Both the position numbers and the translations under genes were made by a program. Shown here piece by piece: positions 10,938 through 60,174 of a stretch of 64,000 nucleotides of DNA (positions within the stretch are counted from its first letter, which is position 1; the number at the start of each line of letters is the position of its first letter). The DNA is taken from positions 62,001 through 126,000 of the forward strand of contig JAJIRX010000916.1 of the NCBI GenBank assembly GCA_023853785.1, read 5' to 3'. A model generated the notes under the pieces. That model ran no database searches. It was not told the DNA's origin and worked only from the letters and a program-made list of their open reading frames with translations. Source of the stretch: Psilocybe azurescens. Lineage: Eukaryota > Basidiomycota > Agaricomycetes > Agaricales > Agrocybaceae.

Positions 10938-11269
10938 CCAAATAGGAGGTCTTTACCCTCACCCATATATTCCGGGTGGAGTTCAGTGACTCCTTTTTGC
11001 AGGTGTTCCAGCTATTTAGAGGTGAAGACTCCACATAGAGTCCAGCTGAAATTGACTCATCCTCCATGTGGACTCCATGTTGAACTTCATCTGAGTCTCA
11101 CATCCTCCATGTGGATTCCATGTGGATTTGACTCATGAAGCATGTATATCATCATTATCAGCATTAATACACTATTTCAGAGTCAATTTCAAACAGACTC
11201 CAGGTGGAGGAAGATCCCTAGATTTTATTTATATTTTATTTATATTTTATTATAATGTTAAAAAAAAAA

Positions 11270-11347
11270 GCGCAAACGGGAATTGAACTCAGGCATCCGA
11301 GAAGGCTACACACTGATGTTAAACCAACTAGGCTATATAGCCTTTGT
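11270..11347 (-). other. tRNA-like segment with A and B boxes (element A)
   Basis: Read on the minus strand it has a box A-like TAGCCTAGTTGG (11324-11335) and a box B-like GAGTTCAATTC (11280-11290), spaced as in a tRNA gene, followed by a run of T (11261-11269) that could act as a pol III terminator. The acceptor and T stems are imperfect, so it is not called as a functional tRNA. It may be a pol III promoter or a tRNA-derived SINE head. Confidence 0.6.
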
Positions 11348-11389
11348 AATTTATCAAAATGTGATGGACTACATACCAATACGGCTATT

Positions 11390-12240
11390 TACTCAGCATT
11401 TCTCAGCAAGTGACAAATAATGTCATGTATATGACTTATTGATGCCACGTTGGTCCGTTTATTATTTCCACCACCCACCTCTTTCTCCAACCACCACCAC
11501 CCTGCTGCTGCTGTTGTGCATGCCCCCACCTTGCCGTCATCAGTCAGAGCCAGGCCCATGCCAACCTGACCCGACACACATCACATCACAACAAACCAAG
11601 ACCGACAAAGACCAAATGGACACCTGCGAACAAAGAGAGGTGAGTACGGAATGAGATGAAACAAGGCAGGTGGGGAACAAGAAACAAGGCAAGGCAAGGC
11701 AAATGCAGAATGAGGCGGAACAAGGCAAGGCAAGGCAAACAAGGAACAAGGTCGCGACCCAAGGTAAGTCGCAAATTCCGCATGCCACCACCATTAACTG
11801 CTCCCACCCCCTCTTTTTTGTACAGGCCAACAACAACAACAACAGTGGGTACGTAAAGTACATACAACGATGGGTACAACGGCACGCAGGATGTGTACGT
11901 ATGTACAATGACACCAACACGTATGCAGACCACAACGACAACACGTACAACAGCCGCGATAACGACAACAACAGCCGCGATAACGACAACGACGGCCATG
12001 CCAACAACAATGCATATGGCAGCCACAACAACGATGTGTATGACGGCCGTGACAATGATGACAACAACATGTATGATAGCCATGACAACAACAACAACAC
12101 ATATGACAGATGCAGCAGACACAACAACACAACATACGGACATGCCAGACGTGTACGATGGCCACCACAATGTGTACAAAGGCCACCACAACAACAACAA
12201 TGCGTATGGCAGGGCTATGAGCGACATGGCCATTCTCTCC
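11390..12240 (-). repeat. degenerate triplet/hexamer minisatellite of element A
   Basis: The plus strand is rich in ACAACA/GACAAC units. It is open in several frames on both strands because it is a low-complexity repeat, not because it is coding. On the minus strand its proximal end carries the GGTTGGCATGGGCCTGGCTC anchor also found in elements B (near 49490) and C (near 59513), followed by a GGTGGTGGT run. Confidence 0.65.
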
Positions 12241-12491
12241 ATCAGGAAAAAGGGATTTGCCCTGAGAATGTCTTAGGTAATTACAACCTTTATAAAGTAC
12301 ATTTATCACTCTAGGCTGCTTTGGGACGTCTTTGTGGTCTTTGGAAATAGTCTGATTTCTTAAAGCTTTCAGCAGTCTTTGCAAGATTTCAAATTTCTCT
12401 GAAGCTCTCTATGAGTCTTCTAAAAATTCTAAATTACCACAAAGCATTCTTGAAATTTCTGAGCATAGCATTATTAAATCTTAGATAAGTA

Positions 12492-12805
12492 TAGGGAATG
12501 ACATGGGTGACCTGCGGGAATCTCGCGCTATACCCGTACCCGTACCCTTGGCGAGCCCTACCCGCAATCCGGCGGGTTTACCTGTCAAAACGAGCCCAAA
12601 ACAACCTGAACGGTTGAGAAATGAGGGAGATAGATCAGAAATAGTGAATTTCACTGCTTCCTTTCTATCTCACTCAATTCTCAACCATTGGGGATGTTCT
12701 AGAGCTCGTTTGAAATCTCACGTGTACAAATATTGTTACCTGTACCCGTACTCGTGTACTGTTACCCATAACCCGCACGGGCTCAAAAATGCGTGCCATT
12801 CCTTA
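12492..12805. mobile_element. hAT-type MITE H1
   Basis: 314 bp with ends TAGGGAATGACATG and, reverse complemented, TAAGGAATGGCACG. It is flanked by a perfect 8-bp duplication GATAAGTA (12484-12491 and 12806-12813). T/CAGNG-like ends with an 8-bp duplication fit hAT. Both ends carry CCCGTACCCGTACCC-type subterminal repeats. Non-coding. Confidence 0.85.
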
Positions 12806-12944
12806 GATAAGTACATAGCTAATTTAATAAACTACATCTACAACATGATATTTAAAAGATAATGGAATAAGACAGGGGGAACAAGGCCTGGTGATTGCAG
12901 GAAAATAGTAGCTGCATAGTAAGAAAAGATATGCAAAAAGGCCC

Positions 12945-13262
12945 TAGACAACGGCACAGGTTCGGGTATTCTGTACGGGTTGATAGCCAGACATAGCGCG
13001 GATACAATTACAGATAAAAATTTCTGTTTTTCCCCTTCAAAACGAGCCCAAAAACGTAATTTTTGAACCAAAACTGAGTAATTTACAGCCAATTTTGTGC
13101 AATGTATTAAAATAGGCCATATCTCAGTCATTTCTGGCCCGATTTGGCTATTTTTGAACTCTTTTGATTGGTAAACATGCACAGATTGTGGATATGGTAT
13201 TACACGGGCTGGATACGGATAATAGGGCCGATACGCACGGGAATACACATGCTGTTGCTCTT
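12945..13262. mobile_element. hAT-type MITE H2
   Basis: Related to H3 (same TAG…CAACGGCACAGGTTCGGGT start and an interior with 'aggccatatctcagtcattt'). The right end is CATGCTGTTGCTCT. GTACGGGT and CACGGG motifs lie near both ends. No convincing duplication remains, so it is older or its boundary has drifted. Confidence 0.7.
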
Positions 13263-13609
13263 GAAAGCAAATAAATAATGTAAATCACATGACATTCTCC
13301 ATTTGTGCTTTTGTTTACTTATGCCATTCCTGGTGAAGTGAACTCCTTTCAACATTCCACCACCCACCACATTCTCACATCCTTGTTTAGAGCTTGGATA
13401 ACTGAAAGATATGTACTACCACATTCTTCTCACCAAGCACTGTTGCTATAACTCACCCTGCCTTTAGTACAACTTATACAAGATGGGATGCGTTTTGGTT
13501 GTGACAGTATTTCCTGAACGTGTCTCGTAGATTTGGTCACATCCCTTTTCATATCAGTTTTGGGAAATTTTCCCAAGCATCATGTGAAAGGTTGAACTTC
13601 TGTGATTTG

Positions 13610-13928
13610 TAGGCAATGGCACGGGTTCGGGTATTGTGTACGGGTTAATAGCCGGTTATTGTGCGGATAAAATTACGGATAAAAATTATCCTACCTGTCA
13701 CCTTCAAAACAAGTCCAAAAGCGTAAATTTTAAGCCAAAACTGAGTGAATTATGGCCAATTGTATGCAATGCATTAAAATAGGCCATATCTCAGTCATTT
13801 CTCCACCAATTTGGCTGTTTTTAGACTCTTTTGATGGGTAAAAATGCGCGATTCATGTGTATGGTATTGCAAAGATTTAATATGGCTAAAAGGGCCGATA
13901 TATACGGGAATAACCATGCTGTTGCCTA
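13610..13928. mobile_element. hAT-type MITE H3
   Basis: 319 bp starting TAGGCAATGGCACGGG and ending CATGCTGTTGCCTA. It is flanked by the perfect 8-bp duplication GTGATTTG (13602-13609 and 13929-13936). The interior is clearly homologous to H2, with the same GTACGGGT-type subterminal motifs. Confidence 0.88.
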
Positions 13929-15868
13929 GTGATTTGTGAAGTTCAACTTTGTTCTTGGTTCACCACCACCACCACTGTTCCCTTACCCTCATAATTGTCA
14001 ATGATGCCCAATGTTGTTGATGCCATTTTCACTGCCCCACACTCACTGTGCTAATACTAAGTACCAGCATTCCCTTTTATGTAGTAAAGCTGACACCACC
14101 TGACAGTAACAAGAACTGGCAACGGTGCCCATGTAGTGTAATAATGGCAGTATCTCAGTAGGTACTACCATTACCTCTCCACCACCCTCTATTGCTAATC
14201 CATAACAAAGACCCCCAGTGTACCATGCCACATGCTTATGCCGCATGCAGTGGCAACTGAGTATGCAACTAGCTCACATCAAACACCATGCCGCCCCATC
14301 TGCACAGATATGTTCAGTCCATCTCCCACCTTTTTCTTTTTGCTAACAACCATACTTTCAACAGACCACAGAGGATGGCTCACAGTCCTGTCATCTTTGT
14401 CATCTGGTGTGTCTAATGCCCACTACCCTACACTTGCAATCACCACCACTGTTCTGTCTTTCATCATTATGAATAGAAATGCTAAATCCTGAAAGTGAGT
14501 ATACCACAGCCCCTCTTCTGTCTCTTTACTAACTACAATGTGCATAACAGATTGCATAGGACTGTTTTTGGCCCCAGCACTGGCATCGGTGATGTATCAT
14601 TTTCCATGTTCATTTGGCCATCCAGTGACTCACCGCCCATTTCCCTGTGCTTACATTTGGTGGCACTCATCCCACCATTTCACCTTTTGGAGTAATGAAT
14701 GAGGGTGCTAAATTCTGACAGGTATGTTTTAATTATCGTTTCCCCCACTTTTTGCTCACTAAAACTCATGTAATAGACAACTATCTCTGGTCCTGACATC
14801 TATGCACCACTTTCCCTCTCCCTTCCTCAACCTGCTGTGCCCATCCAATGGCCCACTGTCAACATTAGCTATAGTATCTTAGATTACGATGATGGACTAC
14901 CCCACATTCTATCTATCCTATTATACATTATTTTTATATATCCTCTTCCCTGTCTGTGATTGTATAATCAACTAGCATATCACTATAGTAGAGAGCTTGC
15001 TTTAATTATATATACATTTTACTATACTTGAATTCTGTAAGATGCCATTACCATGCTGCGTCTCAAGTGAACTTGAAGAGAAATAAAAGACATCTCAGTG
15101 GATGTCAGAGATGCCTTAAGTAGCTTTAGATGTCTATGAGAAGTCTTTGGGAGGCCTGTGGATAATATTTGGGTTGCTTTGGAATGCTTTGGATAAACTG
15201 TTCCCACGTCACTTTGCGTTGAAAGGTGCTTAGGGTGCTTTGTGTCTTTATCATCTTTAAAGTCTCTAAGATGCTTAAAGACACCTAGATTTCTTTGGGA
15301 TAAAACCTCTTTTTCCTGATGTCGCCCCCTTTTTTCTTTTTTTTTTTATCTCGTTTTCATATTTTTTTTCATGTTCATGTGCTTCTACATTTATTTGAAC
15401 CAACTATGTACCCTCTCATCTACTTTTTTGTCTGTTTCATATGTTTTTCTTTTATTTCTTTTGTTTTATATATTTTTTATGTTTCAGTGGTGATGAACTT
15501 CACTAGTAGATAATATTGTAGATAATAATGTAGTATATAGTTTTTAATATATTATATATACATTCTTGCATGAATTTACTCTAAGAAAATATATTCCAAT
15601 TTAAATCTGGCTATAGCTGGACTTTGTGAAATTCAATAAGTCTGCTCTCTGATGGCCTAAGCTGGAATATTGTTACCCAGGTATGGAGTCCTGGTGGATT
15701 CTAATTGGACTCCACCTGGACTCCACCTGGCCTCCACCTGGCCTCCAGTTGGAGTCAAGTGGAATTGCTTGAAGTCCACCTGGAGTCCACCTATCAAAGA
15801 TAATTTTCTGAACACTTGCATATGTTCCAGATGGAGTATATGGGTGGAGGTAAAGTACACCCAAATAG

Positions 15869-20280: not shown

Positions 20281-23200
20281 CTAATCTGTATTTCCCAGCA
20301 TTCTTGATAACTTTAAAATGATTATATGACCTGATAGGTATCCAAAACATATCTGGCTATCCCAAATTGAGGAGCAAAAGAACTGGCAATGACGAGATGG
20401 AATCCAGCAGTCAAAGAGTGTGCCTACTATCCATCGACCATCATCTGATATCTGAAGAGCAGAATCAATACTGGGGGTAGGTTGCTGTAGAGGATGGATA
20501 ATGCAAAACATGCCAGGAGTGGTCCCAATTCTCTTCACTCTGCCACCATCAGGCAATATAATGACAGAGTTAGTCATTGATTGTGATGTGCTTGTCATCA
20601 AATTCCAAATCCGTACTGTTTTGTCTTCTGATCCAGAGACAACTCGGCTGCTGTCCTGTGAGAATGCAACAGATGTCACACTATTTGTGTGGCCCTTCAG
20701 CTTGGCCTCCACCTTGCCTGTTGACACATTCCAAATCCGGACTGTGTGATCATATGATCCAGAGACGACTTGACTGCCATCCTGTGAGAATGCTACAGAC
20801 CTCACTGAATCTCTGTGGCCCTTCAGCTCAGCCTCCAGCTGGCCTGTTGACAGATTCCAAATCCGGACCATTTTGTCGTTTGATGCAGACACAACACGAC
20901 TGCCATCTTGTGAGAATGCGACAGATGTCACCATACCTGTGTGGCCCTCCAGCTTGGCCTCCACCTTGCCCGTTGACACATTCCAAATCCGGACTGTTTC
21001 ATCATATGATCCAGAGATGACTCGACTGCCATCCTGCAAGAATGCAACAGACCTCACTGAATCTCTGTGGCCCTTCAGCTCAGCTTCCACCTTGCCCGTT
21101 GACACATTCCAAATCCGGACCGTTTTGTCATTTGATCCAGAGACAACTTGACTGCCATCCTGTGAGAATGCAACAGACCTCACCAGACATGTGTGGCCCT
21201 TCAGCTCAGCCTCCACCTTGCCTGTTGACACATTCCAAATCCGGACTGTTTTGTCATATGATCCAGAGGCGACTCTGCTGCCATCCTGCGAGAATGCAAC
21301 AGATGTCACTGGACCTGTGTGGCCCTTCAGCTCAGCCTCCAGCTCAGCTGTTAACACATTCCAAATCCGAACCATTTCATCATCTGATGCAGTGACAACT
21401 CGACTGCCATTCTGCGAGAATGCGACAGATGTCACTGTGCCTGTGTGGTCCTTCAGCTTGGCCTCCACCTTTCCCGTTGACACATTCCAAATCCGGACTG
21501 TTTCATCATATGATCCAGAGATGACTCGACTGCCATCCTGCGAGAATGCCACAGACCTCACTGAATCTCTGTGGCCCTTCAGCTCAGCCTCCACCTTGCC
21601 TGTTAACACATTCCAAACCCGGACCATTTTGTCGTTTGATGCAGACACAACACGACTGCCATCTTGTGAGAATGCGACAGATGTCACCATACCTGTGTGG
21701 CCCTCCAGCTTGGCCTCCACCTTGCCCGTTGACACATTCCAAATCCGGACTGTTTCATCATATGATCCAGAGATGACTCGACTGCCATCCTGCAAGAATG
21801 CAACAGACCTCACTGAATCTCTGTGGCCCTTCAGCTCAGCTTCCACCTTGCCCGTTGACACATTCCAAATCCGGACCGTTTTGTCATTTGATCCAGAGAC
21901 AACTTGACTGCCATCCTGTGAGAATGCAACAGACCTCACCAGACATGTGTGGCCCTTCAGCTCAGCCTCCACCTTGCCTGTTGACACATTCCAAATCCGG
22001 ACTGTTTTGTCATATGATCCAGAGGCGACTCTGCTGCCATCCTGCGAGAATGCAACAGATGTCACTGGACCTGTGTGGCCCTTCAGCTCAGCCTCCAGCT
22101 CAGCTGTTAACACATTCCAAATCCGAACCATTTCATCATCTGATGCAGTGACAACTCGACTGCCATTCTGCGAGAATGCGACAGATGTCACTGTGCCTGT
22201 GTGGTCCTTCAGCTTGGCCTCCACCTTTCCCGTTGACACATTCCAAATCCGGACTGTTTCATCATATGATCCAGAGATGACTCGACTGCCATCCTGCGAG
22301 AATGCCACAGACCTCACTGAATCTCTGTGGCCCTTCAGCTCAGCCTCCACCTTGCCTGTTAACACATTCCAAACCCGGACCATTCGGTCAGCTGATCCAG
22401 AGACAACTCGACTGCCATCCTGTGAGAATGCCACAGACATCACCGAATATATGTGGCCCTCCACCTCACCCTCCACCTCATCCATTGACATGTTCCAAAT
22501 CTGGGCTGTGTGATCATTTGATCCTGAGACAACTCTACTGCCATCCTGTGAGAATGCCACAGACCTCACTGAATCTCTGTGGCCCTCCAGCTCAGCCTCC
22601 AGAATGCCCGTTGACACATTCCAAATCCAGACTGTTTTGTCATCTGATCCAGAGACAACTTGACTGCCATCCTGTGAGAATGCGACAGATGTCACTCTAC
22701 TTGTGTGGCCCTCCAGCTCAGCCTCCAGCGCACCCGTTGACACATTCCAAACCCGGACTGTTTTGTCTTCTGATCCAGAGACAACTTGACTGCCGTCCTG
22801 CGAGAATGCCACAGACCTCACTGGATCTCTGTGGCCCTCCAGCTTGGTCTCCAGCTCACCCGTTAACACATTCCAAATCCGGGCTGTGTGATCATTTGAT
22901 CCAGAGACAACTCTACTGCCATCCTGTGAGAATGCCACAGACATCACTGAATATCTGTGGCCCTCCAGCTTGGCCTCCAGCTCACCTGTTAACACATTCC
23001 AAATATGGGCTGTGTTATCATTTGATCCTGAGACAACTCTACTGCCATCCTGTGAGAATGCCACAGACCTCACTGAATCTCTGTGGCCCTCCAGCTCAGC
23101 CTCCAGTGTGCCCATTGACACATTCCAAATCCGGACTGTTTTGTCATCTGATCCAGAGACAACTTGACTGCCATCCTGTGAGAATGCGACAGATGTCACT

Positions 23201-26200
23201 CTACCTGTGTGGCCCTCCAGCTCAGCCTCCACCTCACCTGTTGACACATTCCAAATCCGGACCATTCGGTCAGCTGATCCAGAGACAACTTGACTGCCAT
23301 CCTGCAAGAATGCAACAGACCTCACCGGACATGTGTGGCCCTCCAGCTCAGCCTCCAGCTGGCCCGTTGACACATTCCAAATCCGGACCATTTTGTCATT
23401 TGATCCAGAGACAACTTGGCTGCTGTCCAGTGAAAATGCAACTGATTGCACTGATGACCCATTTTGTAAAACAACCTCTGTTGGGCCCCATGAATCAAAT
23501 AATCCAAGAAATACTTTTGGCACTCTGCCGGCCTCTCTGGCATAGGTCTTGCGGATCACTGATTGCTTCGGAAGCCAAACAAGTGCAGACTGGTAAATCT
23601 CCATGCAGTGTTTCTGCACAGCTTCAAAGCTCATTTGTAAACATCGGCGGGCATCGTTGACAATCAGCTGAAGGTCATGGCATTTGATGGCCTGTCAGTC
23701 AGAAAACTATCAGACTCATAATTTCTTTCCTCCTCATCCTGGTGAATGACTTACTGATAGGACTGGGGTGATGCTACTGAGGGATTTCACTCCTATCTGT
23801 AATACCCCCAGCATGCTGAGACACTCTACCCAGTGTAGAAGATGTTCATGGAGAAAAATGTGAAGAACATTGACAAGTTCTCCATAAACCTGAAGAGGGT
23901 CGACAAGTTCAGTGGCAGATACCTCGATCTCTGCTAAATGAGAAGCCCAATAGAGGCATGAGTATTTGAGTGCTTCAGAGATCTTGCCAACATTTTCCTG
24001 AGAGTTCGTCCTTTCTCTGCGTGACAGTGTTAATTCTTCCGGAATTTCGCATATATTGTACTTCAGTGACATGTTCATCAGCATCAAACATTTGCGAGCT
24101 AGAAGTTCATGACCCTCAGAAGCAACCAGCGAACGGAATGAGGGGCTACGCTCTGGAGAACAACGGATGGCATTGGTTATGAAGTCAGGAAACGAGGCAT
24201 GGAATGGAGCAACTGGATCTTCCTTGGTGGCAGGGATATGTATGACAGATGTAAGCTGTGACAATTCCGAGGATGCATCCATTCCTGATAATGATTCGAT
24301 GGCTTGGATTGGCAATGGATTTCGAAGGAATATGATGATCGACATTAGGTCCCTCATGGGAGTAACTTCATGGGATGGCTTCTCCTTACAAGCCATTTCC
24401 AAAATACGTATGTACAGAGTGTCAATGTCAGTTTTGAACTCGGTAACTGATTCTAGGCCTTGTTTAGCCATTTCAGAAAGACGAGACTTGTAGTGGTTGC
24501 GACCGCTGGCAATATAACGAACAGCAGTCGCTGCATAAATGAAGAGTGTACCAGAACGTGCTATGAGGTCGTTTAGCTCAGTTTTCGAGGGCCATTCTTC
24601 AGCAGTACCATGGCGATTCTTGTCCCTGATGTCAACCAATGATGCTTCAAGATATTTACCAATATCCTCCCGGACCACATCCTTCTCGATGTCATGGACA
24701 CGGAAAATCTTTGCTTCGTTGTCCCCGTAGCTGAAAGCGTTGCTAATCTCAGATTCTTCAGCGACTGGAAATGAACACCTTGAGAGGAATTTTCGATGCC
24801 GACTGAAGAACAAGCTTAATGAATGAAGCGACGACTTCAAGGTTGCCACATTCATCGACGGCATCAATAACGACGACTTTGTATGGCTTGTCCGCCATGC
24901 CAGCGGTCATTCGGATAGGGTCATAAACGAGCTTCTTGAACTGCTCACGGATGTTACGATAGGTCGGTTCTGCCAGAGTAGAGTCGTCCTCGATGGCATG
25001 GACGACCTCAATTTTGATGGGAGGTGAAGACCTGGCGAGCGCGTGCGCAATAACGGGAATAATAAGACGCGCATTACTAGTCTTCTCGGATGCACGAGAA
25101 GCAAAGAAATTGCCGCCAAGCATGTTTTTTGCTTCAAGGATCTCGCAGAAGGTGTGCGCAATGCTCGATTTCCCGATTCCAGCCATGCCTACCATCCAGT
25201 ATACCATGCCGCTATCGGTGTCCGAGGCCGAGGCCCAAGTTTCCAAAGCCTTGAGGACCTCAACGCGTGTCCCTTCCAGGCAGCCGGTGGCGTCACCATA
25301 GGACGACTGCCGAGTTTTATAGGAAGTCATTTCATGATTGAGTTTGTCGATGGAACCTATGGCTGTGTGAGCATCGGAAGCGAAGTAGGACTCTGTTGGG
25401 TTAGTTTATCTCACCGGAGTTCAGGCGCTACGGGTCTTTTTATCAGCCCCGCTCCTATGTCTGGAAGTAGCAAGAGTAATGTACCTGTAAGATATCGCCC
25501 ACCATTGCCTCGATGTTCAGCTGAGTATCCATCTTAAGCAATGATCAACCTCCCCGCAAAGATTTGTTAATAACTCAAAAACTAACCTGAAAGACGTCGC
25601 ACAGACTGTTAATGTTCCGCAAGGCCTTCAGTATTGTATCGGCATCCTTCGTAGCCACGGCAGCACGGGCCAACAGCCATTGCTTCTGCAGCTCTTCCAC
25701 ATTCTTCAATTGGAGAATTATTGCCCTGGAAAGCATGGGCGAATATAAAATATGACCAAAAAACACAAAGAAGCGACGTACTCGCAGAAAATTTTAATCC
25801 GATGATTTATCGCACCTAAGCCTTCCTTTTCTTTATACTTCTCAACGATCGAGAGGATGGCCGCTAGCTTTTGGCTGAGGTCTTCAAGTTCCTTCTTATT
25901 CTCCAATACGGTCTGATCCGCAAGAATAAACTCATGAACCTTTGTTGTTGTACAGCAGGATACATACCTCGACAAATTTGATAATTGTCAGAATTCCTCC
26001 AGCAGCCGTCTTCAAAGGTAAGAACATATCAGAGCAATTGTAAAGTCCCTGCACAACTGTCTTCAGTCCTTCGTAGACAACGTTTCCCACCGCTTTTGCC
26101 TGCTGAACGCCCGTTTCGGGATCGACGACATCGACAGGGAGCCCACCGATTGCCAGATAGGCGTTATCTTGTGAAGCAAGACTCCCGGATGTAGATACGT

Positions 26201-37045: not shown

Positions 37046-37763
37046 TCTTTGTCCGATGAATCCGATGATTTGTTGAATTTTCCGTTGTTCCTTGAGTTGC
37101 CAGATTGTCTAGCCTGTAAGGATGTCTGTGTTGAGTCACCAGACCTAGACTTGCGACGTCTATCTTCTTCCATGAGAATAGCCACAAGTTCATGAGATGA
37201 TAATTGAGGTTTATTCCCACTTGACCCAAGATAAGATGTTGTATAAGTGTCCCATGACTCGGGAAGTGATGTGATTAAAATCATTACAAAATCTTCATCT
37301 GGTACTTTGCTGCCCATAACATGCAGTTCCTCCTGTAGCTGGCGCAATTTTGATATATGTTCCACCATATTGAATCCTTCTTCTGCTGTTGCTCTGTACA
37401 ACGCCCTTCGTGTGGCCAAAATTCCAAGTCGGCCTTTGGATTCCTTCACTGTGGTAAGTTGTTCCCACATTTGGCGTGCTGTGACTGCACCACTGATGTG
37501 TATTATTTCCGAATCTGAGATTGACAGCTCAATTCGGACTCGTGCCTTGCATCCTGTTCTCTCCATTTCTTCTGAGCTTCCAGCTCTTGTGCAGTTGGTT
37601 TTCCGGGGTCAGCTGATTCTGGTGCCTTTGCATCAATTGCAATATGGTCTTCCAGTCCAAGGTCAGTGAATACTGCAAGCATTCTTCGCTTCCATGGCAT
37701 CCAATTATCTGCCTTCAGCATGGGAATCCGGTAGGGTCCAGACGTGCTATATTCGTCCGACAT
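36826..37763 (-). pseudogene. copia gag region
   Basis: Starts MSDEYSTSGPYRIPMLKADN at 37763. After a one-base shift near 37560 it continues as SDSEIIHISGAVTARQMWEQ, LATRRALYRA and a CCHC knuckle CYNCHKK. At the knuckle a run of five A is one base short of what the frame needs, so the conserved GH…C lies in the next frame. Gag forms the virus-like particle in this family. Confidence 0.85.
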
Positions 37764-38062: not shown

Positions 38063-38067
38063 GTAAG

Positions 38068-40733: not shown

Positions 40734-40810
40734 AACTAGGATACATTTAGATTTATAATTTTTGATGTGTTCTTCGGGAATCGAAAAGCAAGAGAGACAA
40801 GTAATCAGTA

Positions 40811-41284: not shown

Positions 41285-42487
41285 CAGTACTTTACAGTGT
41301 CCCACGGGTACCGGTTGGAACCGCTTGGACCCGGTCAGAACCGATCGAACCGGTCGGAATCCGATCGGAATCCACTCGGACCCACTCGGAACCGGTCGGA
41401 ATCCAGTCAGAATCCGGTCAGAATTTCTCATAATGTACTTGTTCAGTGTATAATACAATGCTTAGTCAGCATTACATAATAATTGCTTACATAAGCTTAT
41501 AAATAATATATTGAAATCACATGATATAGTCTGCTTAGTCAGTATTATATAATATTTCTTACATAAGCTCTTAAGTAATCATTCAGGTCATATGATATTT
41601 GTAATAAATGCGAAATTATAAAATGCACTCAAAAGGAATTGAACCAACAGCTTCATATATATTAATTCTATACACACATTACCAACTACACTATTATTGC
41701 TTGTGGTATTATCAACATTTTATGAATTATATACCATTCTTTACAACACCCAATAATATATTCTGGCACTTCCTCTGAAGCTATACCCACATATTATATA
41801 TCAAAATGATCAGAAAATTGAGGGCAATGCATCTGTAATTACACAATCATCAGAATATTATGTCAGCATGTTCAATATACAAAATACTGTAAATTTGAAT
41901 ATATATAGATATTGTAAACTACATTTTGCAACAAAATAGCACTCTGTTAGCTATATATTAATAGTGTTACAATAATAGAAATTAATGGAATACAAAGATT
42001 AATTTTATTCAAGACATTTAGATTATATAAGCACAGATTTATATGAAAATAGGTATTTCTTTACCAGAAATTTTTAATTTTATATAACTATTACATAAAC
42101 ATATTCTCCTCAATTTTACAATTCTAACAATACCAAATTTGTCACAAACTGTTGAGATCTATGTATACTTTTGTGTTATTACTTGTTGAGCTGTAAATAG
42201 TATGCTGACATAATATGGTTCCGCTTGGTACCACTCGGATTCCACTCGGAATTGGGTCTAATTGGGTTTCAAATTTGATGAATTCCACTTGGATTCCAGT
42301 CGGATTCCGGTCGGATTCCGATCAGATTTTGGTCGGACTTGTTAACAGTGGAACCGGTCGGTACCGGTGGTTCCGATCGGAATCCAGTCAGAATCCGGTC
42401 GGAAAAATTTGGACATTTTACTGCTAATTTGGCAGGGACACTGCCAAATAAAATTCGATCGGTACCTGTGGGGAGTGTAAAGACCTC
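41285..42487 (+). mobile_element. non-autonomous 8-bp-TSD element D
   Basis: 1203 bp starting CAGTACTTTACAGTG and ending GTGTAAAGACCTC, flanked by a perfect 8-bp duplication TCAATAAT (41277-41284 and 42488-42495). The host J' sequence is contiguous once D and one TSD copy are removed, which confirms the boundaries. Both subterminal zones (41308-41420 and 42220-42410) are arrays of CCGATCGGA / CCGGTCGGAATCC motifs. The middle carries a tRNA-like segment. No coding frame. Confidence 0.92.
41625..41703 (-). other. tRNA-like segment with A and B boxes (element D)
   Basis: The minus strand has a box A-like TAGTGTAGTTGG (41682-41693) and a box B GGTTCAATTCC (41635-41645), in the order and spacing of a tRNA. 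The same segment is found in F. The acceptor stem does not pair well, so it is not a tRNA gene. Confidence 0.6.
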
Positions 42488-42733
42488 TCAATAATACACC
42501 TGAATAAAGAGAATTTCTATTCTTTGTCTGTTTGTTAAATATACAGAATAGCTGTATGTAATAGCTGTATGTTATACAAACACAAGTTCTGTAAATAAAA
42601 CTTACAGTCAAAGTACAGAATTTATGTATATAACTGCTGTATGTAAAACTTACACCAAAATATACTTGAGGTGCTGCGGGTTCACAAATGTTTGAGTCAT
42701 GTGACTTTGAACCTGCCACATCGGACCGCTCAC

Positions 42734-43201
42734 CCCACGGACTGAACAAAATACAGAATTCTGTACTGTGTTCTATGTGTGATATCTCTTTAATTAATAC
42801 AAGTTCTAATTTTCTATTAAGATTTTCTTTTTATTAATACTAGTATGAACAACCCTCTGCTTGCTGTCAGTCGGACTTCCATTGGAATTCTGTTGGACTT
42901 GTCCATTGTAATTCCAATAGTCATGTCCAGTGGGATTCCAATGGACTTCCAATGGACTTTCATTGGTCCTGTCTGGTCATTTCCAGTGGACTTTGACTGC
43001 TGGTTTGGCATTATTCCAGTGGACAGTCCACCTGGACAGTCTGTTGGACTTGTAGTCCGGTCAGACATTCACCAAATCTCACCTGAATCTCACCAGAAAT
43101 TTTCAGCAGTCCTAGACCAGAAAAATCCTCATTCTGAATATAGCAAGTCTGACAGAGTCCAACCAGAGTCTGACCAAAAATGGGGGCCATGTAAAGACCT
43201 C
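42734..43201 (+). mobile_element. truncated right part of a B/C-type element (G)
   Basis: 'ccccacggactgaacaaaat' at 42734 matches element C near 59658. From 42839 to 43201 it follows the right end of B closely: the CCATTGGAATTC array, then 'gggggccatgtaaagacctc'. The left end, tRNA-like segment and minisatellite are absent. Confidence 0.75.
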
Positions 43202-47688: not shown

Positions 47689-48389
47689 GTGTACTTTACA
47701 GTGCCCCCATATTCTGTTGGACTCCAACGGACTTTCACCGGACCCAGCCAATTCCAATGGACAGTCCATCGGACATCCAACGGATTCCATTGGACTTGAC
47801 AAAATTCCAGTACCAGTCCAGTCAGAGTCCGGCCAAATTCCGGTCAAAGTCCGGTCAAGTCACTTCAAGACAGAAAACAGGTGGACTGGCCGGACTGTCC
47901 AGTCCGTTGGACTTCCACCGGACTCTCAGCACTTAATTAGACCAGATCCAAGAGTGCTCTGTCTAGTGGATGTCCAGTGGATGTCCAGTGGACTGTCACT
48001 GGTTTAATTGCAGACTTGGGAGAGGAGTTAGGGACAGTAGCAGTGTTCTTGGAAGCTTTGGGAGCCATATTAAGGAAGCTAGGTCACTAGGATAATACTT
48101 CAATCTTATCTTTAATTCATGTAACAATGTAATATAATATATTGAAAACTATATACTACATTATTATCTGACTTTGTGAATTTCACTAAGTCCAACTTTA
48201 AATTCACATGGAATGGAATCCAATTGAATTCCAACTGGAATACTTTAATCTTAGCTTAAATTTATGTGACAATGTAATATAATATATTAAAAACTATATA
48301 CTACATGATTATATATAGATAAAAATAAAATAAAAACATAATAAAAAAGGAACCAAAAAGAAAAACAGAAAGAAAGAACAGAAAAAGGG

Positions 48390-49535
48390 GGTGCAGGGTA
48401 CATCGGTGGTGTCGTCGTCTGTGTTATTGACGCCGTGGTCAGCCGTACCTGTCATTGTTTGCGCCGGTGTCACCGTCGGGTGTTGTCGTCGGCCGTACCT
48501 GCCATGGTACATGTCGGTGTTGTGGTACGTGTTGTGGTACGCATCGCTGCTGTCATCGTGTGTTGTGGTTGTCCCTGTTGTCCTCGCTGTCACCGTGGTG
48601 GTACGTGTTGTTGTGGTACATGTCAATGTCGTCGTCTGCTGTGCCTGTCCTGGTACCTGTCAACGCCTTCGTTGCGGGTCGTCACAGTCTGTACCTGTCA
48701 TGGTACATGCTGGTGTCGTCATCACGTGTCATCATCGGCCCTGTCATCCTGGCCTTTGCCGTCGCTGTGGTAGTATCCGTCGGTGCCATCGTCGTAGGTT
48801 GTCCTTGTCCTTGCCCTCGCTGCTCTTGTCCTCACCCTTGCTGCCCTTGTCCTTGCCCTTGCTGCCCTTTTCCTTGCCCTTGCCATCCTTGCCCTTGCTG
48901 CCCTCATCCTCACCCTTGCTGTCCTTGTCCTCACCCTTGCCATCCTTGTCCTTGTCCTTGTCCTTGTCCTTGTCCTTGTCCTTGTCCTTGTCCTTGTCCT
49001 TGTCCTTGTCCTTGTCCTTGTCCTTGTCCTTGTCCTTGTCCTTGTCCTTGTCCTCACCCTTGCTTCCATCCATGTCCTTGCTCTTGCCGCCGTCCTCGCC
49101 CCATGTCCTGGTCCACGCCGGTGTCTTGGTCCTCACCCTCGCAATCCTGGTCCTAGCCGTTGTCCTTGCGGTCCCTCGCGGTCCTTGCCCTCGCGGTCCT
49201 TGCCCTCACCCTTGCTCTTGCTCTTGCTCTTGCTCTTGCTCTTGCTCTTGCTCTTGCTCTTGCTCTTGCTCTTGCTCTTGCTCTTGCTCTTGCTCTTGCT
49301 CTTGCTCTTGCTCTTGCTCTTGCTCTCACCCTTGCTCTTGCTCTCACCCTTGCTCTTGCTCTCACCCTTGCTCTTGCTCTCACCCTCGCCCTCCCAGTCC
49401 TCGTTGTGGTCCTCGTCCGTGTCCTCGTTGTCGCTGTTGCAGTTGTCCTTGTCAGTGTGGCTGTTGTGGTCATTCTCGTCCTCTGTTGCGTTGGGTTGGC
49501 TCTCGCCTGGCTCTGACCGACAAGGCGGTGGTGGT
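48390..49535. repeat. hexamer minisatellite and anchor motif of element B
   Basis: A GTC-rich degenerate part is followed by a pure CCTTGT hexamer array (about 48945-49050) and a pure CTTGCT array (about 49208-49330). The anchor GGGTTGGCTCTCGCCTGGCT with a GGTGGTGGTGG run follows at 49490-49540. Frames of up to 425 codons are open on both strands (Ser-Leu, Cys-Ser, Asp-Lys and Arg-Ala repeats) because the repeat lacks stops. I do not call a protein. Confidence 0.8.
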
Positions 49536-49686
49536 GGTGGAAGGAAAAGGGTTGGGGTCAGAATCAACAATGGATCAACATGGCATCAACATGTCACACA
49601 TGTGTTATTGTTTGTCCCGTGCCAAGCAGCGCCGAGAATTTCAGCCGCATCACTATGTATTTAACTAATTTTATTATTTTCCATAA

Positions 49687-49763
49687 GCCTTTGTGGCTCA
49701 GTTGGTTTATCCCGCTTGTGTTCGGCATTCTCCAATGCCCGAGTTCAATTCTTGTTTGTGTCT
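49687..49763 (+). other. tRNA-like segment with A and B boxes (element B)
   Basis: Box A-like TGGCTCAGTTGG (49694-49705) and box B GAGTTCAATTC (49741-49751), followed by TTTTTT (49773-49778). It aligns with the minus-strand segment of element A (shared 'atgcc(c/t)gagttcaatt'). Stem pairing is poor for a working tRNA. Confidence 0.6.
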
Positions 49764-50259
49764 TTTTTCTATACTAGTATAAATTATAATAAAAGGACAT
49801 CCATTGGACTTCCATTGGAATTCCGTTGGACTTGTCCGCTGGAATTCTAATGGTCATGTCTGGTGGGATTCCAATGGACTTCCATTGGACTTCTATTGGT
49901 CCTGTCCGGTCATTTCCAGTGGACAGTCCGCCCGGACAGTCCGTTGGATTTGTAGTCCAGTCGGACATTCACCGGAATCTCACCAGAATCTCATCGGAAA
50001 ATTTCAGCAGTCCTAGACCAGAAAAATTGTCATTCTGAATATAGAAAGTCCAACGGAGTCTGACCGGAGTCCGACCAAAAAATGGGGGCCATGTAAAGAC
50101 CTCCAGAATCTCTGCCGTATTCTGAGTGCTATGCTCTGTTGTCACCTTTAGTATCTCCCACAGAAATATTTCATGCTCGCCCTTTGCTATTTTCATGGGC
50201 AACATGTCTTGTTGGCAATCATGTTCACTGAGAGATTCATGTGCTTACTGTTAAAGATG

Positions 50260-50582: not shown

Positions 50583-50764
50583 TCTACTTGATAATTAATT
50601 TTTACTGAGCGGTCTTTAGGCACTGATATTGGGAAAAAGTTATCAGACCTTAAGAAATCATAGATGAGTCTTGACTGTCTTGTCCTAGAGCTAGACTCGC
50701 ATTCATTTTACCTATATAATTCTGTACATTCAGTGAATTCTTAGAGCGTCACGGAAATGATCAT
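50583..50764. other. 3' flank of the MBF1 fragment
   Basis: AT-rich spacer between the MBF1 stop codon and element F. No feature recognised. Confidence 0.35.
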
Positions 50765-52353
50765 CAGGAAAAGAAAAATGCCCAGTAGAATGTCACTTAA
50801 GCTATGTAGCACTGGTAGAAATTGGCCTTTGCATTAGCTCCAGTAGCTCCAGTAGCACTCAGTAGTTCTGGTGCATATCTACATAGAGCCCAGTAGCTCT
50901 GGCACAGATCTACTGGGTACTTAGTAGCTCACACTCTGAGCTCCAGTAGCTCCAGTAGCACTCAGTAGTTCTGGTGCACATTTACATAGAGCCCAGTAGC
51001 TCTGGTACAGGTCTACTGAGTACTCAGTAGCTCACACTCTGAGCTACATAGCTCCTGTAGCTCTATGTAGACTCTAGTCAATGCTACAAACACTATATAA
51101 CTCATAGTCTATGCTACCAATACACAGTATTTCCACATGAGTGTTGTATAGGCTACATAGATTATGCAATAAACAATTTCAGCTTAGTAGGGTTACATAG
51201 TGATAGTTTCTTACTTTCAATTAAATCTTACTTAATCTTATTTCAAATTATTCATACCTACCTCAAAAATAGTTCAACCAAAATTTCACACATAACACAC
51301 ACAATTTAATGAGAAACAAGAGCAAGAAATATATGGCTTTGAAAAGTTATAGATTCAATGTAAAAAAAAATTGGAGTCATGATGGAAATGTATATACTGT
51401 GGCACAATAGGGTGAGACAAAAACAAATATAATGATATTGAATCATTGTCAAGTGAAAGTCCTCATGTGTCATGCACAGGCCCAGTCAACAAGAATGGAA
51501 GGCAGCATCCTGTGTACAAAATTGACAAATAATGAACTCCTCTGCCTTGTTGAATACATTTTTCTTCAACTTCTGTAGAAGGGGTTAACTGCAAAGCTTT
51601 GATTTCCACCCCTCTGCTGTCAGAGGTTGGAAAGACCTCTTACAAATATGCTCATTATGCTTTATAAACCATTCTCCACTGTTCTCAGTCCATTCAATTC
51701 ATGAGCGGCCATTGCCCATAAAGGCCTACACAGCAGGCAGAGAGAACCATGATTTAAAGAACATCTGAGAAGGTTGGTCTGGAAAAAAAGTTAGTTACAA
51801 ACTATAAGATATAAGCATGATAAATTATTGGCCAGTTTGAAAAGGTTTTTATACTGCCCCACATGTACCAAGCAGAAAATATACTGACCTAATATTCACA
51901 TGATGATTTAATTGCAGACACATTGCTCTCAAATTTCTGATTGTTTTGATATATAATATGTGGGTATAACTTGAGAGGAAGTGCCAGGATATATTATTGG
52001 CATTGAAAACAAGGGTATATAATTCATTATAAATGTGATGGATAGCACAAGCAGTGATGGTGCATTTGGTAGAGCATGTGTAGAATTATTATGTGTAAAG
52101 CAGTTGGTTCAATTCCTGTTGAGTGTATTTTATCATGTGACATTAATTTACATATGTGTGATGGCTACCAAAGCTGTATAGTGACATATGACAGTTACTA
52201 GGGCTATGTAGTCACACACAGAATCTACTGGTGCTACTGGGACTACAGTAGCTGTCACATATGACTACCAGGTGCTACAGCAAAGGGGGACGTGCAATCC
52301 AGCTACCAGTTCTACTGGGGCTACATAGCACTACTGCAGGTATTTTTTTCCTG
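50765..52353 (+). mobile_element. non-autonomous element F (related to D)
   Basis: Ends CAGGAAAAGAAAAATGCCC and, reverse complemented, CAGGAAAAAAATACCTGC. They are followed on both sides by GCTATGTAGC and arrays of CCAGTAGCTC / CTACTGG motifs (50855-51060 and 52195-52335). The flanks ATGATCAT and ATGATGTC share only the first five bases, so any 8-bp duplication is decayed. The interior 51890-52160 aligns with the reverse complement of D, including the tRNA-like segment. The ends resemble those of element I more than those of A-D. Confidence 0.75.
52051..52125 (+). other. tRNA-like segment with A and B boxes (element F)
   Basis: Box A TGGTGCATTTGG, followed by TAGAGCATG (52058-52078), and box B GGTTCAATTCC (52106-52116). 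It is the most tRNA-like of the four copies. Homologous to the minus-strand segment of D. Confidence 0.62.
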
Positions 52354-53264
52354 ATGATGTCCTTTAGAGAATTTGCACATTCATTACGTGAACAAGCCTA
52401 ACATTAATGTCCCGGAGCCATTCTTTCTGACTCACAACAGGTGCCAGACCTTTAAAAAACAAAGCCATGAAAGTTTTAAAGGGCCAATGGTCAGATTGCA
52501 CAAAATGACACGTCGAGATGAAGCCAAGCAGGAGTCGAGGGAGGAGAGATATTGACGCGACTAAGCCGGACCGTGTTTCAATGTCCGAGGATTACATAAC
52601 AACTTTCTGACGCGGTTTGGGGGCATGATAAAAAACAGACTTCGTATATCGTGATCCGTAGGGTACCTCACATATATTGAAGTCTGTCTAGGAGAGACTA
52701 TTTGAAACCAGCTATATGTAGCTCTGGTCAGCCTTTGTCACAGTCTATTTAAACTGAACGACACACAGAGACACTATTATCGTAGTCAAACATGTTAGCG
52801 TGTACATTGGGGATCGACCGTCCTCCTGCCTTTTCATTGCACATTGCACATCTCTCGCATACTCTGCCATCGCGTGATCCTGTGTGGCCCGCGTTCGGGT
52901 ACGATCCATCATCCTATACTCTGCCATTCGTCCATCCCCCTTCCGCCTTACCAGAAACCATATATTTGTACATTGAGACTGGAGAGAAACAAAGACAGAT
53001 GGCGATGGCGATATAATACTGGTCGTTCGGGCAATATATCGGATGTCCAGGAATCCGGGGAGAACTACTACTTTAAGCTGTGATCACGACATGACACAGC
53101 TTTCGGATTCAATTTGGTTTTTAGTCCTCTCATCTGTAACGAGTCACGTACTCATCTGTGGCAGTACATCTACATCAATCACCAGTCATATTTTCTTACC
53201 GACAGTGGCCACACTCAAACCTCGCAGAGCACCTAGGTTCCAGAAACCCTACTCGCTGCCAGCG
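52354..53264. other. intergenic, upstream of the F-box gene
   Basis: No gene recognised. The last few hundred bases should include the promoter of the F-box gene. An in-frame upstream ATG at 53043 makes the true start uncertain. Confidence 0.4.
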
Positions 53265-56704: not shown

Positions 56705-56707
56705 TTA

Positions 56708-57217
56708 GAGTCAGTTCAGCAACAAAAATGCGGGCGCATTTTCATTTTGATGGTATTCTCATTATTCCCACATGCCCCAAAGTGGAATGGCTGTGTTATT
56801 TCTGGTTCGATTGTGACAGGTCCGAATAGGCACAACAACAGCACAAGCAACAACGATACCCGACGGGTGCTTGTCGTTGTCCGCCTCTCAGCCCCACTGC
56901 TTGACATAAACCTTAAGTACTTCTAATTGCAAAGACTTAAGTATGTAAAAATATTTTGCACAATATTTTATGTATACATACAAAGTTGCGCCAGCTATTC
57001 CATCAGAAGGACGTTGTCAGAGCATGTTCGCTGTTTCCAACGATGAGCTCAACCTAAGCTGGACAGTGCTGGGGAGGGTAACAGTAAGTTGATGTGACCA
57101 GGGATATAGCTGTCAAACAATTTAGTAATATTCATTACCTGTGGGAATAACACCAAAGTACCATCAAAATGAAAATGCGGTGAAAATGCACCTGCATTTT
57201 CATTGCCGGACTGACTC
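56708..57217. mobile_element. PIF/Harbinger MITE K2
   Basis: 510 bp with ends GAGTCAGTTCAGCAACAAAA and, reverse complemented, GAGTCAGTCCGGCAATGAAA. Both are followed by GCATTTTCATTTTGATGG-like sequence. The target duplication is TTA (56705-56707 and 57218-57220). Same family as K1 by its ends and 'gggaataa' motif; no transposase. Confidence 0.82.
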
Positions 57218-57220
57218 TTA

Positions 57221-57979
57221 TCTTTGGCTGTAGAAGTGAGAAATTTTTAGTTATGAAAGTGAGTAACCCTATAGTACACTAAAGTAGTATTACTATGATG
57301 GCTTGTTATGCTTACTCCATCTCAAATCCCCTTTTAAAACTATGTTTTAATTTTTAACAGACCTGGTTCAGGTCTTTGCACATCTCTTAAAAAAAATTGA
57401 ATTATTGAAGATAAAATTGTGTGGAAACAGGCTTCAGTGTCCATCCCCAAGGTCATATTTCTACAAAAGGTTCTGATTTAGTATCAGTATTTCAATTGAC
57501 AATACTAACTCCTGAGGAGTTCTCTACTGATAAAAGATGTTTTCTACATGTCTATTATAAATTTTGGTATTGATTACAAGGGAGACAAGTGTGAATAGAT
57601 CAGATAAGCTACCATCTTTACTTTCACTTACTTTGCCTGCAGTGTGATATGGCTTTAGTACCCAAGTAAGTGACATTAACTTATTCTCACTTGGCTTGTG
57701 ACAAAGTTCACTTGAACACCATAAGTTAGTTACAAGTGAATATAAGTTACTTTTGTATGGCCAAATAAATTGCCATAAGTTACTTGGCTTGATGGTCATT
57801 GCTTTGCATGGCATAACAAGTCCTTTTGTGGGACTTATTTGAACTATTCTTGCTTACTTATCCTAATACTTTTTAGCATCAAAATCTTATAATTACATAT
57901 ACTGAACAATTCATTATGCACAATACCAAAAAACTAGAGAAAAGGAGCCATTTTACTATATTGGGGCCAGACTTTTATG
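57221..57979. other. intergenic with AAGTTAC-type repeats
   Basis: About 57640-57790 has repeated AAGTGA / AAGTTAC phrases, again like an isolated subterminal array. The segment 57916-57960 resembles 60231-60275 on the other side of element C, so C sits between two copies of an older repeat. No gene. Confidence 0.4.
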
Positions 57980-57987
57980 ATCCTTTC

Positions 57988-60174
57988 CAGTACTTTACCA
58001 TCCCCACACAGTCCATATGGACTCCAGTGGACTCCACTGGACTTGCCTATATACTGAGTGTAAAGGTAAACAGAGTCCAGTGGACTCCAGTGGATTCCAC
58101 TGCACTTTAGTAGATCTTATACTATACATTGAGATTGAATTTATTTACTGTGTCAAGTCCAGTGGACTCCAGTGGACTCCAGTGGACTACAGTGGACTAC
58201 AGTTATTTTAGTCCATATTCAATGTATAGTATAAGATCTACTAAAGTGCAGTGGAATCCACTGAGTCCACTGGACTCTGTTTACCTTTTACACTCAGTAT
58301 ATAGGCAAGTCCAGTGAGTCCACTGGAGTCCACTGGACTTGACACAGTAAATAAATTCAATCTTAACATAAATTCAGATTAGTGGAATAAAGTATATTAA
58401 TAACTATTTAATACATTACTACATATCTACATGTGAGGGCTAAGACAAAAGGAAGAAATAAGATAATAAAATAAAAAATAAAAAAGGGGGAGCAGGAGCA
58501 GTACTTTACCATCGTACGTGTCGTCCGTCGGGTCGTCCGTCGGGTCATTGGTACCGCGTCCGTATCCATCGCTGTCGCAGCCGCCGTACCCGTCCTTGTC
58601 GCTGTTGCAGCCGCCGTCCGGCGTCCCTCGTCCTCGTCCTCGTCCCTGCCGTCCGCGTCGGTCCTCGTCCCTGTCGCAGCCACCGTCCGCGTCCGCATCC
58701 TCGTCCTCGTCCCTGCCGTCCCCGTCCCTGTCGTCCCCGTCCGTCCCCGTCCGCTGTCGTCGTCGTCGTCCCCGTCCGCATCGTCCCCGTCCGCGTCCTC
58801 GTCCTCGTCCCCGTCCGTCCTCGTCGCTGTCGCGTCCGGCGTCATCGTCGCTGTCGCGTCCACGTCCTCGTCCCTGTCGTGTCCACGTCCACGTCCGCGT
58901 CGTCGTCCCTGTCGTGTCCACGTCCACGTCCGCGTCGTCGTCCCTGTCGTGTCCACGTCCACGTCCGCGTCGTCGTCCCTGCCGTCCGCGTCGGTCCTCG
59001 TCCCTGTCGCAGCCGCCGTCCGCGTCCGCGTCATCGTCCCTGTCGTCCCCGTCCCTGTCGCATCCGCTGTCGTTGTCCCTGTCGCGTCCACGTCCGGCGT
59101 CGTTGTCCCTGCCGTTCACGTCGTCGTCCCTGCCGTCCACGTCGTTGTCCCTGCCGTCCACGTCGTCGTCCCTGCCGTCCACGTCGTCGTCCCTGCCGTC
59201 CACGTCGTCCCTGCCGTCCGCGTTGTCGTCCCTGTCGCAGCCGCCGTCCGGCGTCCGCGTTGTCGTCCCTGTCGTCCGCGTCCGGCGTTGTCGTCCCTGT
59301 CGTCCCCGTCCGTCGTCGTCCCTGTCGCGTCCACGTCCACGTCGTTGTCGTCATCGCTGTCGCGTCCCTCGTCCCTGTCGCGTCCACGTCCGCGTCATTG
59401 TCCTCGTCCTCGTCCCTGCCGTCCGCATCCGTCGTCGTCCCTGTCGCAGCTGCCGTCTGCGTCCGGCGTCTGCGTCCTCGTCCTCGTCCTCGGTCGTCAA
59501 CCTCTGTCGCGTCGGGTTGGCTGTCGCCTGGCTCCGACCAACGAGGTGGTGGTGGTGGTAGTCGGAAGAAAGGTTGGGGTCGTCCATTTGATGGTTGTCG
59601 TGCCGATCGGCCGATGCCGGGCACGTGTGCACGTCACATGTGCTTGTGAAATTTGACCCCGCGGACTGAACAAAATACAAAATTGTATCCATAGGGAGGC
59701 ATTGCTCCCTAGTGTATTTAACTATTGTTTCATTTAATTGTCATTTCATAGAGTTTATTTCCATTGATTTTAGTCTTTTATTTTTTGCAATTAATATTAA
59801 TAACTAATGATCATACTTTGGATATTGTGTTAATTATTGCATCCAGTGGACTCCAGTGGATTCAACTGGACTGTGCTAATAAATATATTATTTGTTGTTG
59901 TTCAGTGAATATTTAAGCCCCAGTCCAGTGGACTCCAGTGGACTCCAGTGGACTTGACTGGACTCATAATCCACTGGACTGAGACTGGACTGAAAATTTG
60001 GCAGGAGTCCAGTGCGAGTCCAGTGGACTCCAGTGGACTGCAGTCCAGTTCCAGTCCAGTGGACTGGACAATCTGTCAGCCAGTTTGGCTGGACAGAGAG
60101 TCCAGTGGAGTCCAGTGGAGTCCAGTGGAGTCCACTGGAGTCCATATGGATTGTGTGGGGAAAGGAAAGACCTC
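57988..60174 (+). mobile_element. non-autonomous 8-bp-TSD element C
   Basis: 2187 bp. Starts CAGTACTTTACCATCCCC and ends with the inverted partner …GGGGAAAGGAAAGACCTC. It is flanked by a perfect 8-bp duplication ATCCTTTC (57980-57987 and 60175-60182). CCACACAGTCCATATGGACT is mirrored at the right end. Both ends hold near-perfect arrays of CCAGTGGACT (58020-58340 and 59840-60140). Inside are the shared AT-rich stretch, minisatellite and anchor. No tRNA-like segment was found in this copy, and no transposase. Confidence 0.9.
58500..59570. repeat. GTC-rich minisatellite and anchor motif of element C
   Basis: A kilobase of degenerate (GTCCCT)(GTCGCG)(GTCCAC)-like hexamers with GC far above the flanks. 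It ends in the anchor TCGGGTTGGCTGTCGCCTGG and a GGTGGTGGTGG run (59510-59562). Open in all six frames over hundreds of codons (Arg-Gly-Gln, Asp-Gly-Arg, Ser-Leu-Ser repeats), which is a by-product of the repeat. Not called as coding. Confidence 0.8.

Follow-up and report, generated by a model that had tools for sequence, protein, structure and literature searches.

What moves a group of elements that share their outermost ends and part of their interior, and that each carry an array of their own short motif just inside both ends? The question is raised by a 64,000-bp stretch of the Psilocybe azurescens genome (G000:C790:62001-126000; hereafter the window), in which a preliminary description had recognized six related elements, A to F, and had looked to hAT transposases as their partners. 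We give a probability of roughly three in four to the following reading: A-D, together with a decayed E, are mostly non-coding members of cut-and-paste families, each family with its own CxC5-CxC6 DDE (Asp-Asp-Glu) transposase and private arrays, and a common non-coding core has been moved between families by whole-end exchange. Genome-wide counts given below come from 70.4 Mb.

Array words, which are quasi-palindromic, were counted as CCR-N(1-2)-YGG, and 500 dinucleotide shuffles of each stretch served as the null. Elements A-D and their arrays are placed in the window as follows.

10946..15860, reverse strand: element A, non-coding, 4915 bp, with the perfect 8-bp duplication CCAAATAG on both sides
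At 10946, reverse strand: right terminus of A, GAGGTCTTTAC
10946..11246, reverse strand: right array of A, 5 words of the CCACATGG/CCACCTGG type (0/500 shuffles reach 5)
15640..15860, reverse strand: left array of A, 6 words (0/500 shuffles reach 6)
Ending at 15860, reverse strand: left terminus of A, GTGTACTTTAC
47689..50103, forward strand: element B, non-coding, 2415 bp, left terminus GTGTACTTTAC, right terminus GTAAAGACCTC
47689..48003, forward strand: left array of B, 9 words
49795..50103, forward strand: right array of B, 11 words
57988..60174, forward strand: element C, non-coding, 2187 bp, with the perfect 8-bp duplication ATCCTTTC
57988-58345, forward strand: left array of C, 11 words
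59840-60174, forward strand: right array of C, 14 words
41285..42487, forward strand: element D, non-coding, 1203 bp, with the perfect 8-bp duplication TCAATAAT
41285-41425, forward strand: left array of D, 7 words
42215-42487, forward strand: right array of D, 10 words

Ten subterminal stretches, 2.9 kb altogether, hold 83 of the 135 words of the window, a density of 28.2 per kb as against 0.85 per kb in the rest. The eight left and right stretches of A-D contain 5-14 words each where 0.24-0.89 are expected, and no shuffle reached the observed count in any of them; the dense arrays reported for these four elements are thus real. Motif centres are spaced 10 or 11 bp apart, or by multiples of these distances, with 68 pairs at 11 bp in A, 40 at 11 bp in B, 16 at 10 bp in C, and 31 at 10 bp plus 32 at 11 bp in D. 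Element B has B-type ends at both sides but unequal flanks, and is absent from the list of duplications described below.

Across the genome, the ends belong to at least five families with common 11-bp termini, namely A, B, C, D and a new family G (copies L059-L061, with CCAANTGG words). The two shared ends are unequal, the left one reading CAG- or GTG-TACTTTAC and the right one GAGGTCTTTAC. The sequence CAGTACTTTAC occurs at 527 places (68 for its reversed control), GTGTACTTTAC at 374 (control 47) and GTAAAGACCTC at 542 (control 62). Specific left termini number 149 for A, 165 for B and 172 for C; the co-occurrence of these families within 50 kb therefore stands, whereas the order once seen in the series does not. 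Convergent ends were paired from position lists, blind to motifs, and part of the pairs was then fetched. Most end pairs examined have 8-bp duplications. A set selected for duplication, with one mismatch allowed in the flanking 8-mers and the window elements included, comprises 35 distinct elements (14 A, 4 B, 2 C, 12 D and 3 G), and five further perfect 8-bp duplications flank B elements on contigs C142, C220 and C372 and A elements on C8 and C438.

The motif proved to be the same at both ends of an element and to differ between elements, as first proposed. When words were pooled by family (L059 being left out of the G profile), the left-right cosine within a family was 0.61 for A, 0.83 for B, 0.98 for C, 0.90 for D and 0.92 for G; it was the highest of its row in five of five cases, and the diagonal ranked first of 120 permutations. 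Since the copies within a family are not independent observations, the sample that counts is five families. Among fetched convergent pairs with a duplication, 30 of 31 were of the same type at both ends; the other, L097, escaped the patterns and was typed by eye as A, and L059 lends no support to this count, its left end having been typed with a word written for that copy. Pairs without a duplication agreed in 11 of 23 cases (12 with L048, likewise unclassed by pattern and typed by eye). On contigs up to C528 we also recorded, from positions alone, which right end came first within 4 kb of each left end. For 83 A-left ends this was A-right in 49 cases, B-right in 10 and none in 24, and in seven of the 10 B-right cases the A-left end sits inside a B element. 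For 88 B-left ends it was B-right in 51, A-right in two and none in 35. The search patterns for A-right and B-right were strict, so that part of the 'none' cases are missed variants. The 98 C-left ends gave A in three cases, B in one and none in 94, a row affected by the absence of C right ends from the list. Beyond these families, L118 (C140:93600-94090) joins the shared core to a further kind of right end, with TTCCGCGGACTCCGGCGG words and a terminus ending in AAAAGCCCTCC, within a C-type flank; this is perhaps a sixth end type. Copies L058 and L065 have left termini CAGTACTTTACACTCCCC followed by CTCAGNGCTGAG-like palindromes, and are perhaps another family.

The gene that accompanies these ends encodes a CxC5-CxC6 protein (PF18718/PF18721), annotated only as a cysteine cluster. 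In a long A pair (L112; 6,373 bp, duplication GGGTGATG), reading frames match CxC6 at 1.4e-8, above the cut-off, and CxC5 at 0.002, below it. The genome contains 85 CxC6 matches. The protein has 457 homologues, the best being 71% identical and from Lyophyllum atratum, and Pfam finds both domains in 42 of 42 homologues. Over all contigs, 18 CxC6 genes could be typed by a left terminus of A, B or C; in 17 of them the gene lies 1,204-1,311 bp inside that terminus, and in the remaining one, L121, 975 bp inside it. On contigs up to C530, with A, B and C left ends listed, a typed end in the right orientation lies 0.6-2 kb beyond the gene for 16 of 47 matches, compared with 2/47 in the wrong orientation and 0/47 at 4-5.4 kb. 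The expected left-end place was fetched for 20 of the 85 matches, including L118, in which the C-type flank is interrupted by the core with its further right end. These places were typed as B (4), C (4), A (1), G (3; from words and a 99% match to L061, the terminus lying outside the fetched stretch) and D-like (1; from words only).

Each array type is associated with its own version of the gene, tentatively so for D. An 11-copy CxC6 group at 53.4 bits has six typed members, all B, and five gene-bearing B pairs measure 7.67-7.97 kb, those on C220 and C372 with an 8-bp duplication. The gene-bearing B copy on C437 lacks its left flank and shares its right flank with C220, so that the two are probably one insertion assembled twice (G000:C220:104343-112137, C437:28700-36509). 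In conserved blocks, the proteins of A, B, C and G have identities of 60-75%, highest between A and G; D blocks show 50-54% identity to the others, values that are too low because one D block was read out of frame. The expectation that every array type has a separate transposase lineage is borne out by the distinct CxC5-CxC6 lineages of A, B, C and G. A search for autonomous copies with each motif had been suggested, and gene-bearing elements do exist for A, B, C and G, and tentatively for D, but their gene is not a hAT gene.

Structure prediction points to a catalytic function for this protein. In two structure models, a second aligner grouped the C-terminal half with the catalytic cores of integrases and transposases, and the protein models as an RNase H-like DDE transposase in which CxC6 is inserted after the first catalytic strand. 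The candidate triad (P0015 numbering) consists of D379 (85/85 sequences), D547 (85/85) and E627 (77/85, with 4 gaps), and these positions lie at predicted strands 373-382 and 543-546 and a predicted helix 625-634. E651 of P0001, considered as the first catalytic residue, was dropped because the fold puts the aspartate of a DG pair in the first strand. A PDB sequence search with the protein gave ion-channel rows only, at E 0.05, and an NCBIfam search nothing above the cut-off.

Several observations weigh against the reading favoured here. No array was found at five of the 20 fetched left-end places, and at another of them, L121, a B terminus is followed by a gene flank of C type. Of 47 CxC6 matches, 31 have no typed end where one is expected (the search covered left ends of A, B and C, so that those of G and D, decayed ones and contig ends lay outside it), and two also had an end in the wrong orientation. 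Among gene-bearing B elements, that on C236 lacks a duplication and that on C527 has one of 7 bp only; duplications of gene-bearing elements were examined in A and B. B left words resemble C right words too (cosine 0.66). L059 has a perfect duplication and a left end without an array, so either a left array is dispensable in some cases or this one disappeared afterwards. Finally, Foldseek alone produced no match with an E value of 0.001 or below, the best values being 0.033 and 0.0016, and the assignment to a transposase fold therefore comes from the second aligner.

Could the CxC5-CxC6 gene be a passenger or accessory gene, with the real transposase, a hAT or KDZ (PF18758) protein, acting in trans? 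KDZ proteins are abundant (170 matches in the genome), Pfam labels CxC5 and CxC6 'associated with KDZ', and the Foldseek support is weak. However, none of 22 KDZ places was bracketed by the exact termini on contigs up to about C199, no arrays occurred in the 30 of 170 KDZ loci examined with 1.5-kb flanks, and the KDZ domain was detected in only one of 42 homologues, weakly (E 0.044). The CxC5-CxC6 gene, moreover, has a constant position in A, B and C elements, and its own C-terminal half has a predicted transposase fold. A hAT partner fared no better: one of the two testable hAT matches (20 in the genome) is bracketed by termini, and this match (L063) sits between a D element and an A end, while the hAT dimerization domain (PF05699) is not among the 23 Pfam families listed for the 42 homologues. 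The hAT assignment is accordingly not supported, and we regard a transposase supplied in trans as unlikely. The hAT matches near these ends are neighbours or insertion targets; in L064 a G left end lies inside a hAT exon, and in L084 an A element (duplication GATTTCTC) adjoins a decayed hAT gene. MULE (PF10551) was also considered as a partner; its two matches in the genome have no such termini in their loci.

If each family has its own transposase, how do the families come to share an interior? The following features of the window bear on this.

11196..11501, reverse strand: part of the A core common to B and G copies, up to the right-array border
48170..49794, forward strand: B core, common to G copy L060 (72%, 1744 aligned columns)
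48200..48245, forward strand: leftover piece of an inner left array of G type, within B
58499..58509, forward strand: another left terminus, CAGTACTTTAC, in the interior of C and 511 bp away from the outer terminus
42691..43201, forward strand: isolated right end of the B family (no left end), related to L102, with 7 words in 42860-43201

Non-coding B and G copies have a 1.7-kb interior in common at 72%, with a maximum of 88% over a 322-bp part; of this core, about 270-320 bp recur in A at 68-72%, up to the right-array border. The first 314-370 bp of non-coding B copies match those of gene-bearing B elements (for the left array of the window B, 83-86% identity over element positions 1-314), and pieces of the G inner array follow further inside. 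Copy L092 reads, in order, B array, core piece, whole A left end, G inner piece, core and B right array. A-left lies 495-637 bp inside the B-left end in 8 of 88 cases, while B-left was found inside the A-left end in 0 of 83. Likewise, a second CAGTACTTTAC lies 207-398 bp inside 14 of 32 C-left ends, compared with 1 of 67 other such ends. Because older ends are stacked inside, and because the core is common to A, B and G, one core has worn the ends of several families; in copies with A-left inside B-left, the B ends were acquired after those of A. Ordinary internal deletion is also a source of non-coding copies, L061 being 99% identical to gene-bearing G left ends and L098 looking like the long A element after a deletion. 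The core ends, immediately ahead of the right array, in words resembling Pol III box A and box B and then a T run (49690-49770 in B; 11270-11345 in A, reverse; also L060, L085 and L088). The box-like words were read by eye; ARAGORN and Rfam call no tRNA in the core, and we take weak Rfam rows as chance. The interiors of B (48799-49392) and C (58626-59327) are filled by long runs on 6-bp units.

The preliminary description had read the arrays as a motif centre that changes in step at the two ends. One rival reading is that both arrays of one lineage do so by gene conversion or unequal exchange, so that private motifs arise in place on one backbone and no ends are exchanged. Such a process would account for termini and a frame that are kept while centres differ, for words that are homogeneous within a family, and for landmarks (GGCAG-TGTCCC-GCCA, by eye) common to A and D right ends. 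It is at odds with non-coding B copies that match gene-bearing B for 314-370 bp and then pass into G array pieces and the G-shared core, with whole A-left ends inside B-left ends, and with transposases that form separate lineages by array type. We therefore judge in-step change an improbable source of the present pattern, although change in place may have made the families originally. Judged from these mosaics, it was probably whole ends that were exchanged between families, rather than motif centres that changed in step. Of the earlier interpretation, then, the private matched arrays, their separate transposase lineages and the shared backbone remain; the hAT partner and the in-step centre do not.

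It is conceivable that a single array altered by CpG decay accounts for all the motif differences, or that they reflect the random insertion of a satellite. Decay does contribute: some word pairs of one element differ by CpG transitions (in B, CCATTGG and CCGTTGG), so part of the variety within families is decay, and CpG observed/expected ranges from 0.02 to 1.36 across copies. Copies that have kept their CpG (four fetched B copies at 0.86-1.23, the window C at 1.25 and the window D at 0.94) nevertheless still differ in words and spacers. A random satellite is contradicted by arrays that sit at the termini, at counts no shuffle reached, and that match between left and right by family. We consider this explanation extremely unlikely. 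Decay does fit E, the first of two further stretches listed here.

19007 to about 19671, reverse strand: E, the right half of a copy of the D family, with CpG decay; its terminus reads AAGGTCTTGAC
About 50760-52370, no strand assigned: F, with other termini (CAGGAAAA..., by eye)

E is 74% identical to D and 77% to D copy L057, has a CpG ratio of 0.0 and contains three words, a count reached by 2 of 500 shuffles; its CCAACTGG/CCAATTGG words are the outcome expected from CpG decay of D words, and E is not a motif class of its own. F has no CCR..YGG words at either end (0 and 0), unequal flanking 8-mers and a CpG ratio of 0.03. Part of its interior (51878-52148) matches the D interior, inverted, over 273 bp at 81%, and F is not a member of this element set. 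Thus the arrays first seen hold for A-D, and E and F drop out as motif classes. Elsewhere in the window, 20281-25405 contains a gene with about twenty 126-bp WD40-type repeats, and upstream of it frames in which a NACHT-type ATPase is suggested by eye, and 33610-37608 contains frames resembling, by eye, a Ty1/copia-type retroelement polyprotein.

The termini, duplications, matched and phased arrays, gene position, distinct gene lineages, shared core and stacked ends are observations; from them we infer the following scheme for how arrays are bound, how ends pair, how catalysis occurs and by which route ends are exchanged. The DDE core would cut at the shared 11-bp terminus, and zinc-cluster domains would recognize pairs of TCCR/YGGA half-sites, at about one site per helical turn, with the centre and spacer of an array determining the family to which it belongs. 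Most likely, the transposase forms a multimer whose zinc-cluster domains dock side by side on the arrays of their own family at both ends, so that the ends of one family would pair together. Non-coding copies would arise by internal deletion, and the common non-coding core would pass between families by whole-end exchange, leaving older ends inside; gap repair, recombination in the core, or nested insertion with deletion could each provide the route. More tentatively, and as a possibility rather than an expectation, the CxC5-CxC6 proteins may be transposases of an undescribed DDE group with a zinc cluster splitting the core, the families being kept apart by private phased arrays and the non-coding passengers surviving by serial swaps of end pairs, with fossil ends inside.

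How does this system compare with known ones? The available portions of the relevant reports describe KDZ elements as fungal cut-and-paste elements of ~6-11 kb with a cysteine-cluster transposase, give 8-bp duplications for Zisupton, one Dileera-lineage element and KDZ1, and assign Kyakuja CA..TG ends and 7-bp duplications (PMC12810828, PMC12730594); the KDZ1-KDZ3 proteins of Cryptococcus carry the KDZ domain and CxC1 (PMC12810828). The present elements resemble these in their cysteine cluster, 8-bp duplication and predicted RNase H-like core. They differ in having CxC5-CxC6 proteins, with a KDZ domain barely detectable in a single homologue, and, unlike Kyakuja, they have no CA..TG ends, their right end being CTC. 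Subterminal arrays of KDZ elements were not found described in the literature searched. Another parallel is the 6,792-bp insert in MSH4 of a sporeless Pleurotus ostreatus strain. According to the accessible part of its description, this insert contains a 739-residue CxC5/CxC6 frame and an internal cluster of short repeats, is present in several copies and shows no linkage to KDZ genes; that part reports no termini or duplication, suggests an involvement of Copia, and leaves origin and mobility open (PMC7641404). As far as described there, the frame, the short repeats and the several copies all resemble the present elements.

In the hAT element Hermes, the available text states, two BED zinc fingers bind a quasi-palindrome of two subterminal repeats, and the target is 8 bp (PMC10368747); Ds copies, as described in the part of the source at hand, have only their ends in common with Ac (PMC3260210). 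Subterminal repeats and an 8-bp duplication, the latter common to other superfamilies too, are likenesses to these hAT elements as so described. The protein family is different, however, and whereas Hermes and Ac each have one transposase, the present elements are sister families with private arrays on one core; nor, in the text available, are palindrome arrays with one site per turn described for Hermes. By analogy, Hermes may serve as the nearest worked example for the proposed recognition of arrays. CACTA/Spm elements have a repeated subterminal binding motif at both ends, together with 3-bp duplications and CACTA ends. The repeated motif at both ends is shared with the present elements, which in contrast have 8-bp duplications and other termini. 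Subterminal repeats, and non-coding elements that share only their ends with a helper, are thus already known in kind. In the literature searched, which left most subscription papers outside, we came across no report that treats CxC5-CxC6 proteins as the transposases of defined elements. Nor did the same largely open literature yield an account of stacked ends, or of sister families that have one core but private arrays.

For a protein group annotated only as a cysteine cluster, and present here in dozens of copies, these results offer a likely function and an element anatomy. In Pleurotus, the available description places a CxC5/CxC6 fragment in a gene whose loss makes the commercial sporeless strain (PMC7641404). 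Sister families with different arrays and zinc-cluster transposases, and with one shared cargo, amount to a natural experiment on end recognition, and equally on how non-coding elements change their transposase.

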